Assembly (NCBI RefSeq): GCF_002251855.1
Contig: NZ_NOXW01000022.1
Span: 558,001-622,000, forward strand
Direction of reading: 5' to 3'
Origin: Rhodoferax sp. TH121
GTDB taxonomy: Bacteria; Pseudomonadota; Gammaproteobacteria; Burkholderiales; Burkholderiaceae_C
DNA: 64,000 bases
A program made the translations under genes and the position numbers. How positions within the stretch are numbered: position 1 is the first letter of the stretch; each line of letters starts with the position of its first letter. Of the stretch, positions 36,303 to 40,055 are shown piece after piece. The notes beneath the pieces were generated by a model. It made no database searches. It saw only the letters and a list, made by a program, of their open reading frames with translations, and was not told the origin of the DNA.

Positions 36303-37265
36303 ATGAGCGCCGCCGGGCCGCCCCAAGGCGCGAGGGCCCCCTTGGGGGGCAGCGCAGTACGCGAAGCGACAAGCGTGGGGGCCCATTTCCGCGTCGGCAT
36401 CATCGGCGTAGGCAACATGGGCGGCGCCATGGCGCAGCGCCTGTGCAGTCTGGGCTGGGCGCCGTGGGTGCACGACGTGGATGCCACCAAGGTGCAGGAT
36501 TTGGTGCTTTTTGGTGCTCTAGCCCCTGTGGATATTGCGCAAGCAGCTATTGAGTCTGTAGCAACTATCGTCTGCGTAGTGGACGCGGCGCAGACCCGTG
36601 ACGTGCTGTTCGGTGCCAAGGGGCTTGCGCCGCACCTACCGGCGGGCCATGTGGTGCTGCTGTGTCCCACCATCGCCCCGCAAGACGTCGAATCTATTGC
36701 CGCCCAACTGGCCGAGCGCGGTATCCAGACCATCGACGCGCCCATGTCCGGTGGCCCGGTCCGGGCGCGCGACGGCAGCATGAGCCTGATGGTGGCTGGC
36801 GAAGATGCCGCGGTCGCGCGTGTGCAGACCTTGCTGGATGCGTTGTCCACCAAAGTCTTCCGCATCAGCCAACGCGTGGGTGACGGCGCGCGCACCAAGC
36901 TCGTCAACAACCTGCTGGCTGGCATCAACCTGGTGGGCGCGGCCGAAGTGATGGCGCTAGCCGGTCGCATGGGGCTGGACCTGGGGCGCACGCTGGATGT
37001 GGTGGAGCAGTCCAGTGGCCAGAGCTGGATTGGCAGTGACCGCATGCGCCGCGCTATTGCGGGCGACCTGGCACCGCGCGCCCACATGACGCTGCTGGCC
37101 AAGGACACGCGCTTGGCGCAGGAGGCCGCGGCCCACGAGGGCTTTGTCGGCCCGCTGGGTGCCAGCGCCAGCGCAGTGTTTGCCGCGGCAGTAGCCGCAG
37201 GGTTGGAGGGGCTGGATGACGGCGCCCTGCTGGCCTTTCTGCAGCGGCCTAAAATGGCCGAATGA
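36303..37265 (+). CDS. NAD(P)-dependent beta-hydroxyacid dehydrogenase
   Basis: 3-hydroxyisobutyrate/tartronate-semialdehyde reductase-like enzyme. The Rossmann motif VGIIGVGNMGGAMAQRL is at residues 30-46, the substrate segment DAPMSGGPVRARDG is central and the catalytic Lys region is VGDGARTKLVNNLLAG. From ATG 36303 it has 320 residues, but the first 24 are encoded by a dispersed GC-rich repeat (copy B). GTG 36375 would begin just before the Rossmann fold and give 296 residues, nearer the family norm. A dispersed 13-mer copy lies in frame at 36536-36548. The exact substrate is unknown. The stop overlaps the tldD start. Confidence 0.85.
   Translation: MSAAGPPQGARAPLGGSAVREATSVGAHFRVGIIGVGNMGGAMAQRLCSLGWAPWVHDVDATKVQDLVLFGALAPVDIAQAAIESVATIVCVVDAAQTRDVLFGAKGLAPHLPAGHVVLLCPTIAPQDVESIAAQLAERGIQTIDAPMSGGPVRARDGSMSLMVAGEDAAVARVQTLLDALSTKVFRISQRVGDGARTKLVNNLLAGINLVGAAEVMALAGRMGLDLGRTLDVVEQSSGQSWIGSDRMRRAIAGDLAPRAHMTLLAKDTRLAQEAAAHEGFVGPLGASASAVFAAAVAAGLEGLDDGALLAFLQRPKMAE
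36312..36382 (+). repeat. Dispersed GC-rich repeat, copy B, at the dehydrogenase 5' end
   Basis: GCCGGGCCGCCCCAAGG at the left and CAGCG...AGCGTGGGGGC at the right match copy A (34431-34502). CCCCAAGG (36321-36328) and CCTTGGGG (36340-36347) form a perfect 8-bp stem with an 11-nt loop. The element lies in the rodA-dehydrogenase junction and is read as the N-terminus of the latter if ATG 36303 is used. Confidence 0.7.
36536..36548 (-). repeat. Dispersed 13-mer AGCTGCTYGCGCA (in dehydrogenase gene)
   Basis: Exact copy (as TGCGCAAGCAGCT on the plus strand), read in frame within DIAQAAIES. Its context (GGGGCTAGAGC and TATCCAC on the complement) matches the copy at 28812. Codons around it are AT-rich for this gene. 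Confidence 0.65.
37250..37255 (+). promoter_or_regulatory. Predicted -10 element (TAAAAT) before tldD
   Basis: TAAAAT lies inside the last codons of the upstream gene, 6 nt before ATG 37262. No ribosome-binding sequence is present, so an internal leaderless transcript for tldD is plausible. Confidence 0.4.
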
Positions 37266-38722
37266 TCACCCGCGAACCCACCATCGAACGCCTGGCCACG
37301 GCCAAGTCCCTGCTGCTGACCCCGTTTGGGCTGGACGAGAGCCATCTCACCAAAGCCCTGAACGAAATCAAGGCGCACCAGGTCGATGAGGCGGACCTGT
37401 ATTTCCAGTACACCCGATCCGAAGGCTGGAGTCTGGAAGAGGGCATCGTCAAGACGGGTTCCTTCAGCATCGACCAAGGCGTGGGCGTGCGCGCGGTGAG
37501 TGGCGAGAAAACCGCCTTTGCCTATTCCGACGACATTTCCGAGGCCAGCCTGCTGGACGCGGCGCGTACCGTGCGCACCATCTCCAGTGCGGCCCAGTCC
37601 AAGCGTGCCAAGACACCCGCCACCAAGATCGCCAACAGCCGCAAGCTCTACCCCGGCGTGGACCCGATTGCCACACTGGACAGCACCACCAAGGTGGAGC
37701 TGCTGGGCAAGGTGGAAAAGCTCGCCCGCGCCAAAGACCCGCGCGTGATCCAGGTGATGGCCGGTTTGGCCAGCGAATACGACGTGGTGATGGTGGCGCG
37801 CGCCGACGGCACGCTGGCCGCCGATGTGCGCCCGCTGGTGCGCCTGAGCGTGACCGTGATTGCCGAACAAAAGGGCCGCCGCGAAGTGGGCTCCAGCGGT
37901 GGCGGTGGCCGCTTTGGTCTGGCCTATTTCAGCGACGCGCAGATTGAAGAGTATGTGGAGCAGGCCGTGCACGCAGCCCTGACCAACCTGGACGCACGCC
38001 CTGCGCCCGCCGGTGAAATGACCGTGGTGCTAGGCTCGGGCTGGCCCGGCATCCTGCTGCACGAGGCCATTGGCCACGGGCTGGAAGGCGACTTCAACCG
38101 CAAGGGCAGCAGCGCCTTCAGCGGCCGCATCGGCCAGCGCGTGGCCGCCAAGGGCGTGACCGTGCTGGACGACGGCACCATTGCCGACCGCCGTGGTTCG
38201 CTGAATGTGGACGACGAAGGCAATGCCAGCCAGCGCAATGTGCTGATCGAAGACGGCATCTTGAAGGGCTATATCCAGGACAACATGAATGCCCGCCTCA
38301 TGGGTGTAAAACCCACCGGCAATGGCCGGCGCGAGAGCTACGCCCATGTGCCCATGCCGCGCATGACCAACACCTACATGCTGGGTGGCGACAAGGAGCC
38401 AGAAGAAATCGTCAAGAGCATCAAGAAGGGCCTGTACGCCGTCAACTTCGGCGGTGGTCAGGTCGACATCACCAGCGGCAAGTTTGTGTTCTCGGCCTCC
38501 GAAGCCTACTGGGTGGAGAACGGCAAGGTGCAGTACCCGGTGAAGGGCGCCACCATTGTGGGCAGTGGACCAGAGTGCCTCAAGCGCGTCTCGCTCATCG
38601 GCAACGACATGAAGCTCGACAGCGGCGTCGGCACCTGCGGCAAGGAAGGCCAAAGCGTTCCTGTGGGGGTGGGGCAGCCCACCTTGCGGATCGACGGCTT
38701 GACCGTAGGTGGAACTGCGTAA
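37262..38722 (+). CDS. tldD: Metalloprotease TldD
   Basis: Subunit of the TldD/TldE (PmbA) heterodimeric zinc protease, which processes peptides such as microcins and antitoxins. It has 486 residues. The zinc motif HEAIGH is at residues 267-272, followed by GLEGDF. The glycine-rich C-terminal region (GGGQVDITSG) is normal. The partner gene tldE/pmbA is not in the window. The start overlaps the dehydrogenase stop. Confidence 0.95.
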   Translation: MITREPTIERLATAKSLLLTPFGLDESHLTKALNEIKAHQVDEADLYFQYTRSEGWSLEEGIVKTGSFSIDQGVGVRAVSGEKTAFAYSDDISEASLLDAARTVRTISSAAQSKRAKTPATKIANSRKLYPGVDPIATLDSTTKVELLGKVEKLARAKDPRVIQVMAGLASEYDVVMVARADGTLAADVRPLVRLSVTVIAEQKGRREVGSSGGGGRFGLAYFSDAQIEEYVEQAVHAALTNLDARPAPAGEMTVVLGSGWPGILLHEAIGHGLEGDFNRKGSSAFSGRIGQRVAAKGVTVLDDGTIADRRGSLNVDDEGNASQRNVLIEDGILKGYIQDNMNARLMGVKPTGNGRRESYAHVPMPRMTNTYMLGGDKEPEEIVKSIKKGLYAVNFGGGQVDITSGKFVFSASEAYWVENGKVQYPVKGATIVGSGPECLKRVSLIGNDMKLDSGVGTCGKEGQSVPVGVGQPTLRIDGLTVGGTA

Positions 38723-38740
38723 AGCAGATTTCGAAACCTG

Positions 38741-38749
38741 TGCTACATT
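38741..38749 (+). promoter_or_regulatory. Predicted extended -10 promoter of the aroG attenuator leader
   Basis: TGCTACATT forms an extended -10 (TG at 38741-38742, TACATT at 38744-38749). It lies 7 nt before the leader-peptide ATG at 38757, placing +1 at about 38756, so the leader peptide would be translated from a leaderless RNA. No convincing -35 was found, which an extended -10 can tolerate. Confidence 0.5.
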
Positions 38750-38756
38750 GAGCCCC

Positions 38757-38825
38757 ATGCATTCCGCACGTTTCTTTTTTAGCTACTTTTGGTTCTCACG
38801 CGCATCCGGCGGTCGAGAGATCTGA
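38757..38825 (+). CDS. Aromatic-amino-acid leader peptide of the aroG attenuator
   Basis: A 22-codon frame reading MHSARFFFSYFWFSRASG and then GREI, ending in TGA 38823-38825. Residues 6-13 contain five Phe, one Tyr and one Trp. Such a run is expected only if ribosome stalling senses aromatic aminoacyl-tRNA. It is followed by an intrinsic terminator and then a DAHP synthase gene, the first enzyme of aromatic synthesis. The last codons (38806-38813) also form the antiterminator arm. Confidence 0.88.
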   Translation: MHSARFFFSYFWFSRASGGREI

Positions 38826-38869
38826 ACGTACCCACAAGAAACGTACTGAATCTTCCCAAAAACCGCCGG
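38768..38869 (+). promoter_or_regulatory. Alternative RNA stems of the aroG attenuator
   Basis: Two exclusive pairings are visible. ACGTTTCTT (38768-38776, over the Phe codons) is the perfect complement of AAGAAACGT (38836-38844). CCGGCGGT (38806-38813, end of the leader peptide) is the perfect complement of ACCGCCGG (38862-38869), the left arm of the terminator. The pairings interlock and cannot both form in simple secondary structure. A ribosome stalled on the aromatic codons would block the first and favour the second, preventing termination. Confidence 0.75.
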
Positions 38870-38888
38870 CACCCCCGGCGGTTTTTTT
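38861..38888 (+). terminator. Rho-independent attenuator terminator before aroG
   Basis: AACCGCCGG (38861-38869), a 5-nt loop CACCC, CCGGCGGTT (38875-38883) and a run of seven T (38882-38888) form a classic intrinsic terminator with a 9-bp stem, extendable by A-T pairs. It stands 39 bases before the aroG start. Confidence 0.92.
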
Positions 38889-38927
38889 ATGCCTTTTTCT
38901 TTTTAACTTTGACCTCAGGAGCGACCC

Positions 38928-40055
38928 ATGAATGCAAATGCAACGGCTACCGGTGACTGGTACGGCCAACCCCAGCCCGCCGACCGCACCAGCAAAACCG
39001 ACGACGAACGCATCAAGGACATCACCGTGTTGCCCCCTCCTGAGCACCTTATCCGCTTCTTCCCCATCCGTGGCAGCGCGGTGGAGACCCTGATCACCGA
39101 CACGCGTGGCGCCATCCAGAACATCATGGCTGGCAAGGACGACCGCTTGCTGGTCATCATCGGGCCCTGTTCCATCCACGACCCCGCCGCCGCGCTGGAC
39201 TACGCGCGCCGCCTCAAGGCTGTGCGTGAGCAGTACAAGGACACGCTGGAAATTGTGATGCGTGTTTACTTCGAAAAGCCCCGCACCACGGTGGGCTGGA
39301 AGGGTCTGATCAACGACCCCTACCTGGACGAAAGCTTCCGCATCGACGAAGGCCTGCGCATTGCGCGCCAGCTACTCATTGAGATCAACCGCCTGGGCCT
39401 GCCCGCGGGCAGCGAGTTCCTGGATGTGATTTCCCCCCAGTATTTGGGTGACCTGATCTCCTGGGGGGCCATTGGCGCGCGCACCACCGAGAGCCAGGTG
39501 CACCGCGAGCTGGCCTCTGGCATCTCTGCGCCCATCGGCTTCAAGAACGGCACCGACGGCAACATCAAGATCGCCACTGACGCCATCCAGGCGGCTGCTG
39601 GCGGTCACCACTTCCTGTCGGTGCACAAGAACGGCCAGGTGGCGATTGTGCAAACCAATGGCAACCCCGACTGCCACGTGATCCTGCGCGGCGGCAAGAC
39701 GCCCAATTACGATGCTGCCAACGTGGCCGCAGCCTGTGCTGATTTGGCCAAGGCCAAGTTGCCACAGACCTTGATGGTGGACTGCAGCCACGCCAACAGC
39801 AGCAAGCAGCATGAGAAGCAGCTGGATGTGGCCAAGGACATTGCGGGCCAGATCCGTGGCGGATCGAAGAGCATTTTTGGTGTGATGGTGGAAAGCCACC
39901 TGAATGCCGGTGCCCAGAAGTTCACGCCCGGCAAGGACGATGCCTCCAAGCTGGAATACGGCAAGAGCATCACCGATGCCTGCCTGGGCTGGGACGATTC
40001 GCTGGAGTCGTTGGAAGTACTGTCGGCCGCTGTGAAGGCGCGCCGCACTGCCTGA
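38928..40055 (+). CDS. aroG: 3-deoxy-7-phosphoheptulonate (DAHP) synthase, class I
   Basis: Condenses phosphoenolpyruvate and erythrose 4-phosphate, the entry to aromatic amino acid synthesis. It has 375 residues. Signature segments LVIIGPCSIHDP, RVYFEKPRTTVGWKG and MVDCSHANSSK are intact. AGGAG (38917-38921) is a good ribosome site. Which amino acid feedback-inhibits the enzyme cannot be read here; the symbol aroG is used for the AroF/G/H family. The leader peptide containing Phe, Tyr and Trp codons suggests transcriptional control by aromatic supply. Confidence 0.93.
   Translation: MNANATATGDWYGQPQPADRTSKTDDERIKDITVLPPPEHLIRFFPIRGSAVETLITDTRGAIQNIMAGKDDRLLVIIGPCSIHDPAAALDYARRLKAVREQYKDTLEIVMRVYFEKPRTTVGWKGLINDPYLDESFRIDEGLRIARQLLIEINRLGLPAGSEFLDVISPQYLGDLISWGAIGARTTESQVHRELASGISAPIGFKNGTDGNIKIATDAIQAAAGGHHFLSVHKNGQVAIVQTNGNPDCHVILRGGKTPNYDAANVAAACADLAKAKLPQTLMVDCSHANSSKQHEKQLDVAKDIAGQIRGGSKSIFGVMVESHLNAGAQKFTPGKDDASKLEYGKSITDACLGWDDSLESLEVLSAAVKARRTA

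Follow-up and report, generated by a model that had tools for sequence, protein, structure and literature searches.

Results and Discussion

The tldD-aroG Locus and Its Leader

In the window, the 64-kb stretch of DNA that was analyzed, tldD and aroG lie on the same strand, and the gap between them holds a leader ORF and, after it, a GC-rich hairpin with a U tract (38858-38888; Table 1). The product of aroG scored 549 bits against the AroG equivalog model NF006723, slightly below its cut-off of 568, and the solved structures closest to it were DAHP synthases, Phe-sensitive ones among them. The gene that follows the leader acts, as expected of an attenuator, in the synthesis of the amino acids proposed to be sensed.

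The same genome encodes a second DAHP synthase (G000:C13:104471-105517) that is 58% identical to AroG. No aromatic leader was present in the 901 bases read for this paralog, which lacks the attenuator leader and may be a source of basal flux.

Table 1. Features of the tldD-aroG region, in window coordinates.
Feature	Coordinates	Strand	Basis
tldD, upstream neighbor outside the switch	37262..38722	+	NCBIfam NF008006, 672 bits, cut-off 513
Extended -10 promoter element TGC-TACATT	38741..38749	+	Sequence; ends 7 nt 5' of leader ATG
Leader peptide ORF, MHSARFFFSYFWFSRASGGREI and stop, 22 codons, TGA 38823-38825	38757..38825	+	Sequence; counterparts in 76/80 aroG loci
Lineage-specific long-range arm acgtttctt, complementary to 38836-38844	38768..38776	+	Perfect 9 bp
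Control codons Phe-Phe-Phe-Ser-Tyr-Phe-Trp-Phe (residues 6-13)	38772..38795	+	Rarity in window and relatives' commonest residues
Segment 1, UUCUC, in last Phe and Ser codons	38793..38797	+	RNAalifold consensus, TTC codon bias
Segment 2, antiterminator 5' arm, CCGGCGGU + C + GAGAG	38806..38819	+	Frame-independent core, synonymous-recoding ranks
Partner arm aagaaacgt of 38768-38776	38836..38844	+	Sequence
Segment 3, AUCUU...ACCGCCGG, antiterminator 3' arm and terminator 5' arm	38850..38869	+	RNAalifold, concerted changes
Segment 4, terminator 3' arm CCGGCGGU (38875-38882) and U tract	38875..38888	+	Sequence, fold, R3:R4 stem
aroG, type I DAHP synthase, regulated gene	38928..40055	+	NCBIfam TIGR00034 aroFGH, 537 bits, cut-off 173.2

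A sequence-only reading of this region had described a 22-codon ORF with FFFSYFWF at residues 6-13, and the ORF at 38757-38825 matched that description base for base. Only one of the 668 ATG frames of 12-45 amino acids in the window has seven aromatic residues within eight codons, the runners-up being two frames with five, and on this basis the aromatic ORF is not attributable to chance. Over the eight codons ending at the last aromatic residue, the commonest residues among relatives were F-F-F-F-Y-F-W-F, and Phe was contained in all 103 leaders, Tyr in 99 and Trp in 86. This aromatic make-up is kept while the sequence diverges among relatives, with F, Y and W substituting for one another at the control residues from family to family. 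Differences within the aromatic block numbered 1484, 2611 and 2759 at codon positions 1, 2 and 3, respectively, a comparison that was not decisive because F/Y swaps fall on position 2. The leader thus has the form known from attenuators, a short ORF in which codons for the pathway's product amino acids are clustered, and its conserved composition suggests that Phe, Tyr and Trp may all be sensed, as had been proposed from the window alone.

Distribution of the Leader

The sequence-only reading had named a lack of conservation as one result that would refute it. This did not occur, as both the aromatic run and the terminator and antiterminator arms were found to be kept in the family and beyond. 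We collected 80 AroG loci from titled records of Rhodoferax, Polaromonas, Variovorax, Acidovorax, Hydrogenophaga, Comamonas, Aquabacterium and others, a set that includes many metagenome bins and one Solimonas. An aromatic leader precedes aroG in 76 of these; three have none and one was too short (L019). The Polynucleobacter loci L076, L077 and L081 have no leader, which represents either loss or replacement, and two others also titled Polynucleobacter (L066 and L069) have one. The locus from the record titled Solimonas sp. SE-A11 (L055) encodes an AroG 81% identical to that of the window and has a matching leader; transfer or contamination is possible in this case.

A covariance model of the leader gave hits in 146 of the 150 genomes from the GTDB family, a count of genome hits rather than of leaders individually placed before aroG. 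The order was sampled evenly with 120 genomes, of which 91 encode an AroG relative at E 1e-60 or better, with 119 places listed. The 90 upstream regions that were read represent 89 AroG genes (L109 and L170 are the same gene). Leaders of the same anatomy were found before 28 of the 89 genes, counting that of the window, and were distributed over 13 GTDB families of the order; the peptides of the divergent leaders were often quite different. Eight further regions in which a loose scan gave an aromatic ORF (L104, L115, L117, L132, L141, L153, L154 and L161) were left uncounted.

A class-wide search with the model matched five of 274 genomes, three belonging to the family and two to a different one, a figure that understates the spread because the model was trained on close relatives. 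In the two genomes of the other family (L190 and L191) an aromatic leader again lies 5' of aroG, and the leaderless aromatic attenuator may therefore reach beyond the order of the window. The L190 leader reads MNAARASFYFWYYFPKPLAEEGLRSP, and that of L191 seems likely to start with GTG; TGTTATCAAT lies immediately upstream of these leaders.

Terminator and Antiterminator Arms

The strong terminator that had been noted 36 bases past the leader stop is present as described, accgccgg at 38862-38869 pairing with ccggcggt at 38875-38882 ahead of a T run to 38888, and the 8-bp complementarity between 38806-38813 (ccggcggt) and 38862-38869 is likewise exact. The RNA from 38757 to 38895 folds at -43.1 kcal/mol compared to a mean of -29.5 (sd 3.5) for shuffled sequences (z -3.9), and none of 200 shuffles folded as well. 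A simple scan of 38400-39300 returned no terminators and no sigma-70 promoters; the hairpin and U tract are nonetheless plain in the sequence. The terminator 3' arm GGCGGTTT was found downstream in 76 of 77 leaders, the window included, the exception being L035. A strict hairpin search gave no terminator in 10 of the 77, nine of which carry the GGCGGTTT arm, so that most of these misses are due to a wider loop. An intrinsic terminator, as an attenuator requires, therefore stands between the ORF and the structural gene.

RNAalifold analyses of 76 leaders predicted 3:4 together with 1:2 when the whole RNA was folded. Without segment 4 they gave the core of 2:3, and without segment 3 they gave 1:2. 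The core of segment 2 (GGCGG or a near match, with GGCG, AGCGG or GGCCG accepted where GGCGG itself was absent) is in leader frame 0 in 69, frame 2 in 29 and frame 1 in four of 102 leaders. These counts were taken per sequence because our A1 alignment shifts six leaders by one base in segment 2. As the core occurs in all three frames, its conservation is not that of the peptide. At least six contiguous R2:R3 pairs were found in 86 of the 102 leaders, and an R3:R4 stem of at least eight contiguous pairs in 98.

At the position preceding the core, segments 2, 3 and 4 read C/G/C in 60 of the 102 leaders, U/A/U in 10 and G/C/G in one (L065); set against these were A/G/C in 18, U/G/C in five, C/A/U in three and U/A/C in two. 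The association of U with A at this position had a Fisher p of 1.8e-9, a value not corrected for kinship. These changes indicate that the three arms tend to change in concert. In a synonymous-codon test, which used ranks rather than mean duplex energies, R2:R3 pairing exceeded the median of the synonymous recodings in 94 of 101 leaders and was among the best 5% in 49. A permutation test of R2xR3 as a whole gave no signal (z 0.2) because the core hardly varies, and the outer extension of R2xR3 gave z 2.9 compared to -0.2 for the reversed control. An antiterminator that excludes the terminator is thus conserved and, on these data, apparently covarying.

These observations bear on the simplest alternative, namely that a plain intrinsic terminator, belonging to tldD or a small RNA, is followed by a separate aroG promoter, with the aromatic ORF arising by chance. 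Such an arrangement would fit the strong terminator between the two genes and the tldD match in 65 of the 80 fetched loci. We consider it extremely improbable, as the leader is kept in 76 of 80 loci, also in loci with no tldD match (e.g., L027, L029 and L057), the antiterminator and terminator arms are matched, and the aromatic composition is retained despite sequence divergence. A chance ORF followed by an ordinary terminator was rejected based on this conservation and the frame-independent matching of the arms.

A Possible 1:2 Hairpin and the 9-bp Helix

UUCUC at 38793-38797 could pair with GAGAG at 38815-38819, shielding segment 2. The Phe codon before Ser, Leu or Pro is TTC in 63 of 77 cases, compared to 104 of 379 for other Phe codons. 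This protector hairpin over the control codons is predicted by RNAalifold; in 66 of 101 leaders it ranked above the median synonymous variant and in 13 it was among the best 5%, which are weak ranks, and permutation detected no covariation (R1xR2, z -0.6; R1xR2ext, z -1.1). The case for the 1:2 hairpin is consequently weak, and poorer than that for 2:3. Permutation of R1 with the upstream part of R3 also gave no signal (z -0.9).

The sequence-only reading had joined the 8-bp pairing to a second, interlocking complementarity of 9 bp between 38768-38776 (acgtttctt) and 38836-38844 (aagaaacgt). Both are exact, and the two differ in standing: the 8-bp pairing is the conserved switch, whereas the 9-bp helix is specific to a lineage. 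The helix is shared with a close relative (L002), in which it reaches 11 bp, and other perfect matches were found at similar places in L008 (GCGCGTTTT:AAAACGCGC) and L044 (GCGCTTTTA:TAAAAGCGC). Permutation across 98 leaders, five having been left out as they had no anchor, gave z 6.5 for this pairing compared to 1.2 to 2.7 in four controls; in 30 non-redundant leaders the value was 2.9, with controls at 2.2 to 2.4. Strong helices of this type occur in five of 101 leaders, where 1.4 were expected, a small excess over chance. For these reasons the pairing is at most a lineage-specific stabilizer, which would reinforce the sequestration of segment 2. The idea that the 9-bp pairing is the main switch was dropped, its non-redundant z being near the controls and its strong helices so few.

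Proposed Promoter and Leaderless Start

The proposed promoter is an extended -10 box with no recognized -35 element. TGn and a TANNNT-like hexamer lie 6-9 nt 5' of the start codon in 76 of 77 leaders, the hexamer being TACATT in 58. The distance from the -10 box to the start codon was 7 nt in 38 leaders, 8 in 20, 6 in 17 and 9 in one, and in one no box was found. SD-like motifs (GGAG, GAGG, AGGA or AAGG) were absent from positions -20 to -5 of all 77 leader starts; the same motifs were present in 43 of 77 in the approximate region ahead of the aroG match. Where upstream ORFs cross the -10 element it is read in differing frames, which shows that it is not a coding relic.

A -10 element at start-site distance, together with the lack of a Shine-Dalgarno site, is the arrangement by which leaderless mRNAs are recognized. 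The earlier suggestion that the peptide is read from a leaderless RNA is strengthened by the promoter spacing and the count of zero SD-like sites, based on which the leader RNA is probably leaderless. This property is not universal, since visual inspection placed a -10-like box some 35 nt upstream in leaders L085, L087 and L091 of family f3, and recognized none in several other divergent leaders. A strict promoter-plus-ATG pattern occurred once in the window's own genome; a reversed control pattern also occurred once, so the rarity of the pattern proves nothing.

Proposed Mechanism of aroG Attenuation

We propose, with a probability of roughly 0.88, that the leader is a ribosome-mediated transcription attenuator that sets aroG expression by the supply of charged aromatic tRNA. 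Sequence comparison establishes the ORF with its aromatic codons, the three competing arms and their joint conservation, the promoter spacing and the association with aroG; from these features we infer its start point, stalling, termination and the amino acids that count as follows. Transcription would start at the leader AUG or within a base or two of it, and because the transcript starts there the ribosome would load at once with no Shine-Dalgarno site, as the motif spacing implies. With ample charged Phe-, Tyr- and Trp-tRNA, the ribosome would run to the stop codon at 38823 and cover segment 2 (38806-38819); with segment 2 masked, segments 3 and 4 would form the terminator and RNA polymerase would halt near 38888. 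When aromatic tRNA is short, the ribosome would stall on the aromatic codons, best at Tyr10-Phe13, with its leading edge just short of 38806, leaving segment 2 free to pair with segment 3 and allowing aroG to be transcribed. The UUCUC:GAGAG hairpin, with the 9-bp outer helix in the lineage of the window, may hide segment 2 again once the ribosome leaves.

The geometry of the leaders is consistent with this scheme. A ribosome covers about 15 nt on each side of the P-site codon, so that one with Phe13 in the A site would end near 38805, with segment 1 covered and segment 2 free, and one at the stop codon would span about 38805-38836 and mask segment 2. From the start of the last aromatic codon to the segment 2 core the median distance is 14 nt, and it is 12-15 nt in 78 of 101 leaders. 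From the core to the stop codon the median is 16 nt in the same number of leaders and the distance is 10 nt in the window; in some leaders the stop lies 20-26 nt past the core, and a ribosome at the stop would leave the core uncovered. Based on this stall and stop geometry, shortage would favor 2:3 and transcription of aroG, and plenty would favor 3:4. The earlier mechanism had stalling free 38806-38813 to pair with 38862-38869, which stands; the stall itself had been placed over 38768-38776, and the later codons Tyr10-Phe13 are better positioned. The aroG attenuator is, on the comparative evidence, very probably a real RNA switch tuning the first step of aromatic synthesis to supply.

A lack of charged tRNA is not the only conceivable signal, as a nascent peptide could bind a free aromatic amino acid and stall the ribosome in the manner of TnaC. 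Conservation is good in the core of the peptide around Y-F-W-F-S, which would fit a nascent chain that senses. We nevertheless regard this route as very improbable, because F, Y and W are swapped across families, and the C-terminal residues change with the reading frame of the segment 2 core. Moreover, it is shortage rather than excess that should induce a biosynthetic gene, and the site has an intrinsic terminator, whereas TnaC control is Rho-dependent.

Relation to Known Attenuators

In the attenuators of E. coli, RNA segments form either an antiterminator or a terminator, and the pheL-pheA, pheST and trpL leaders each have a Shine-Dalgarno site and sense one amino acid. The aroG leader resembles them in its ribosome-mediated attenuation with competing segments. 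The multivalent ilv leader senses several amino acids, and in our proposal the aroG leader would be its aromatic counterpart. The original study of the AroR-aroF attenuator of Corynebacterium glutamicum is said to be that of Neshat et al. in 2014. In that system, as summarized in PMC11802643, a leader peptide with Phe-Tyr-Phe precedes a DAHP synthase operon, stalling raises transcription, and Phe limitation mattered but Tyr limitation did not. The C. glutamicum system is actinobacterial and, compared by description only, the leader of the window differs in having a longer aromatic run, usually with Trp. The same summary lists E. coli pheL-pheA, pheST and trpL as attenuators and places the E. 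coli DAHP synthase genes under the repressors TyrR and TrpR (PMC11802643).

Precedents for the leaderless format are available as well. The trpL leader ORF of Sinorhizobium meliloti is described as leaderless, its RNA beginning at the ATG, with aromatic control codons and a terminator (PMC7298713). The aroG leader shares aromatic control codons and a terminator, and probably the leaderless start, with trpL, which, according to that description, differs in responding to Trp only and in controlling trpE(G). In Streptomyces lividans, several leaderless amino-acid-specific leader peptides precede biosynthetic and tRNA synthetase genes, and of the eight leader peptides given in that account two are for Trp and none precedes a DAHP synthase gene (PMC8079986).

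The S. meliloti system also raises the prospect that the attenuated RNA or the peptide acts in trans, besides or instead of attenuation, as rnTrpL and peTrpL are described to do (PMC7298713). That description provides a precedent for both products of a leaderless attenuator. We judge such a role unlikely at aroG, given that the peptide ends vary widely between lineages.

No Rfam family reached its gathering threshold anywhere in the 64-kb window, the best matches below threshold being Leu_leader (22.5 bits, threshold 50) and Phe_leader RF01859 (20.6 bits, threshold 55). Our literature search found no published aroG attenuator from Proteobacteria, a result that does not prove that none exists. 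We therefore place the aroG leader, which would make an Rfam family, as a new and widespread addition to the ribosome-mediated attenuators; it stands out for its wide distribution, for a mixed aromatic run and for the leaderless format. The aromatic pathway begins with DAHP synthase, and where E. coli uses repressors at this step, a large group of bacteria here seems to use an RNA switch responsive to tRNA charging. If this is correct, the leader would offer a conserved and easily cloned system for leaderless ribosome-polymerase coupling in attenuation, and for asking whether one leader integrates three amino acid signals.

A Candidate Parallel Leader at leuA

Leaderless attenuation may be a family-wide practice in the Comamonadaceae and relatives, with a TGTGNTACATT-like promoter, 5-9 nt and then an ATG, in which a single leader at aroG would respond to Phe, Tyr and Trp together and a parallel, Leu-rich one would serve leuA; we hold this broader reading to be somewhat better than an even bet. 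The leuA regions that were read (L186 and L192-L220) are 30 of 35 places listed. The own-genome region (L186) has no Leu-rich leader upstream of leuA. In 14 of the 30 family members, a raw count with no chance control, leuA has upstream of it a Leu-rich leader with a promoter of similar format and, behind the leader, a terminator-like hairpin. Apparently leaderless examples of such Leu-rich leaders are found at 276-347 of L182 and on the reverse strand of L183 (2287-2231), and the peptides, as translated by hand, include MNFNFSSTLLLLLPANGQQFFCI and MNRISLALILLLPPGRSW.
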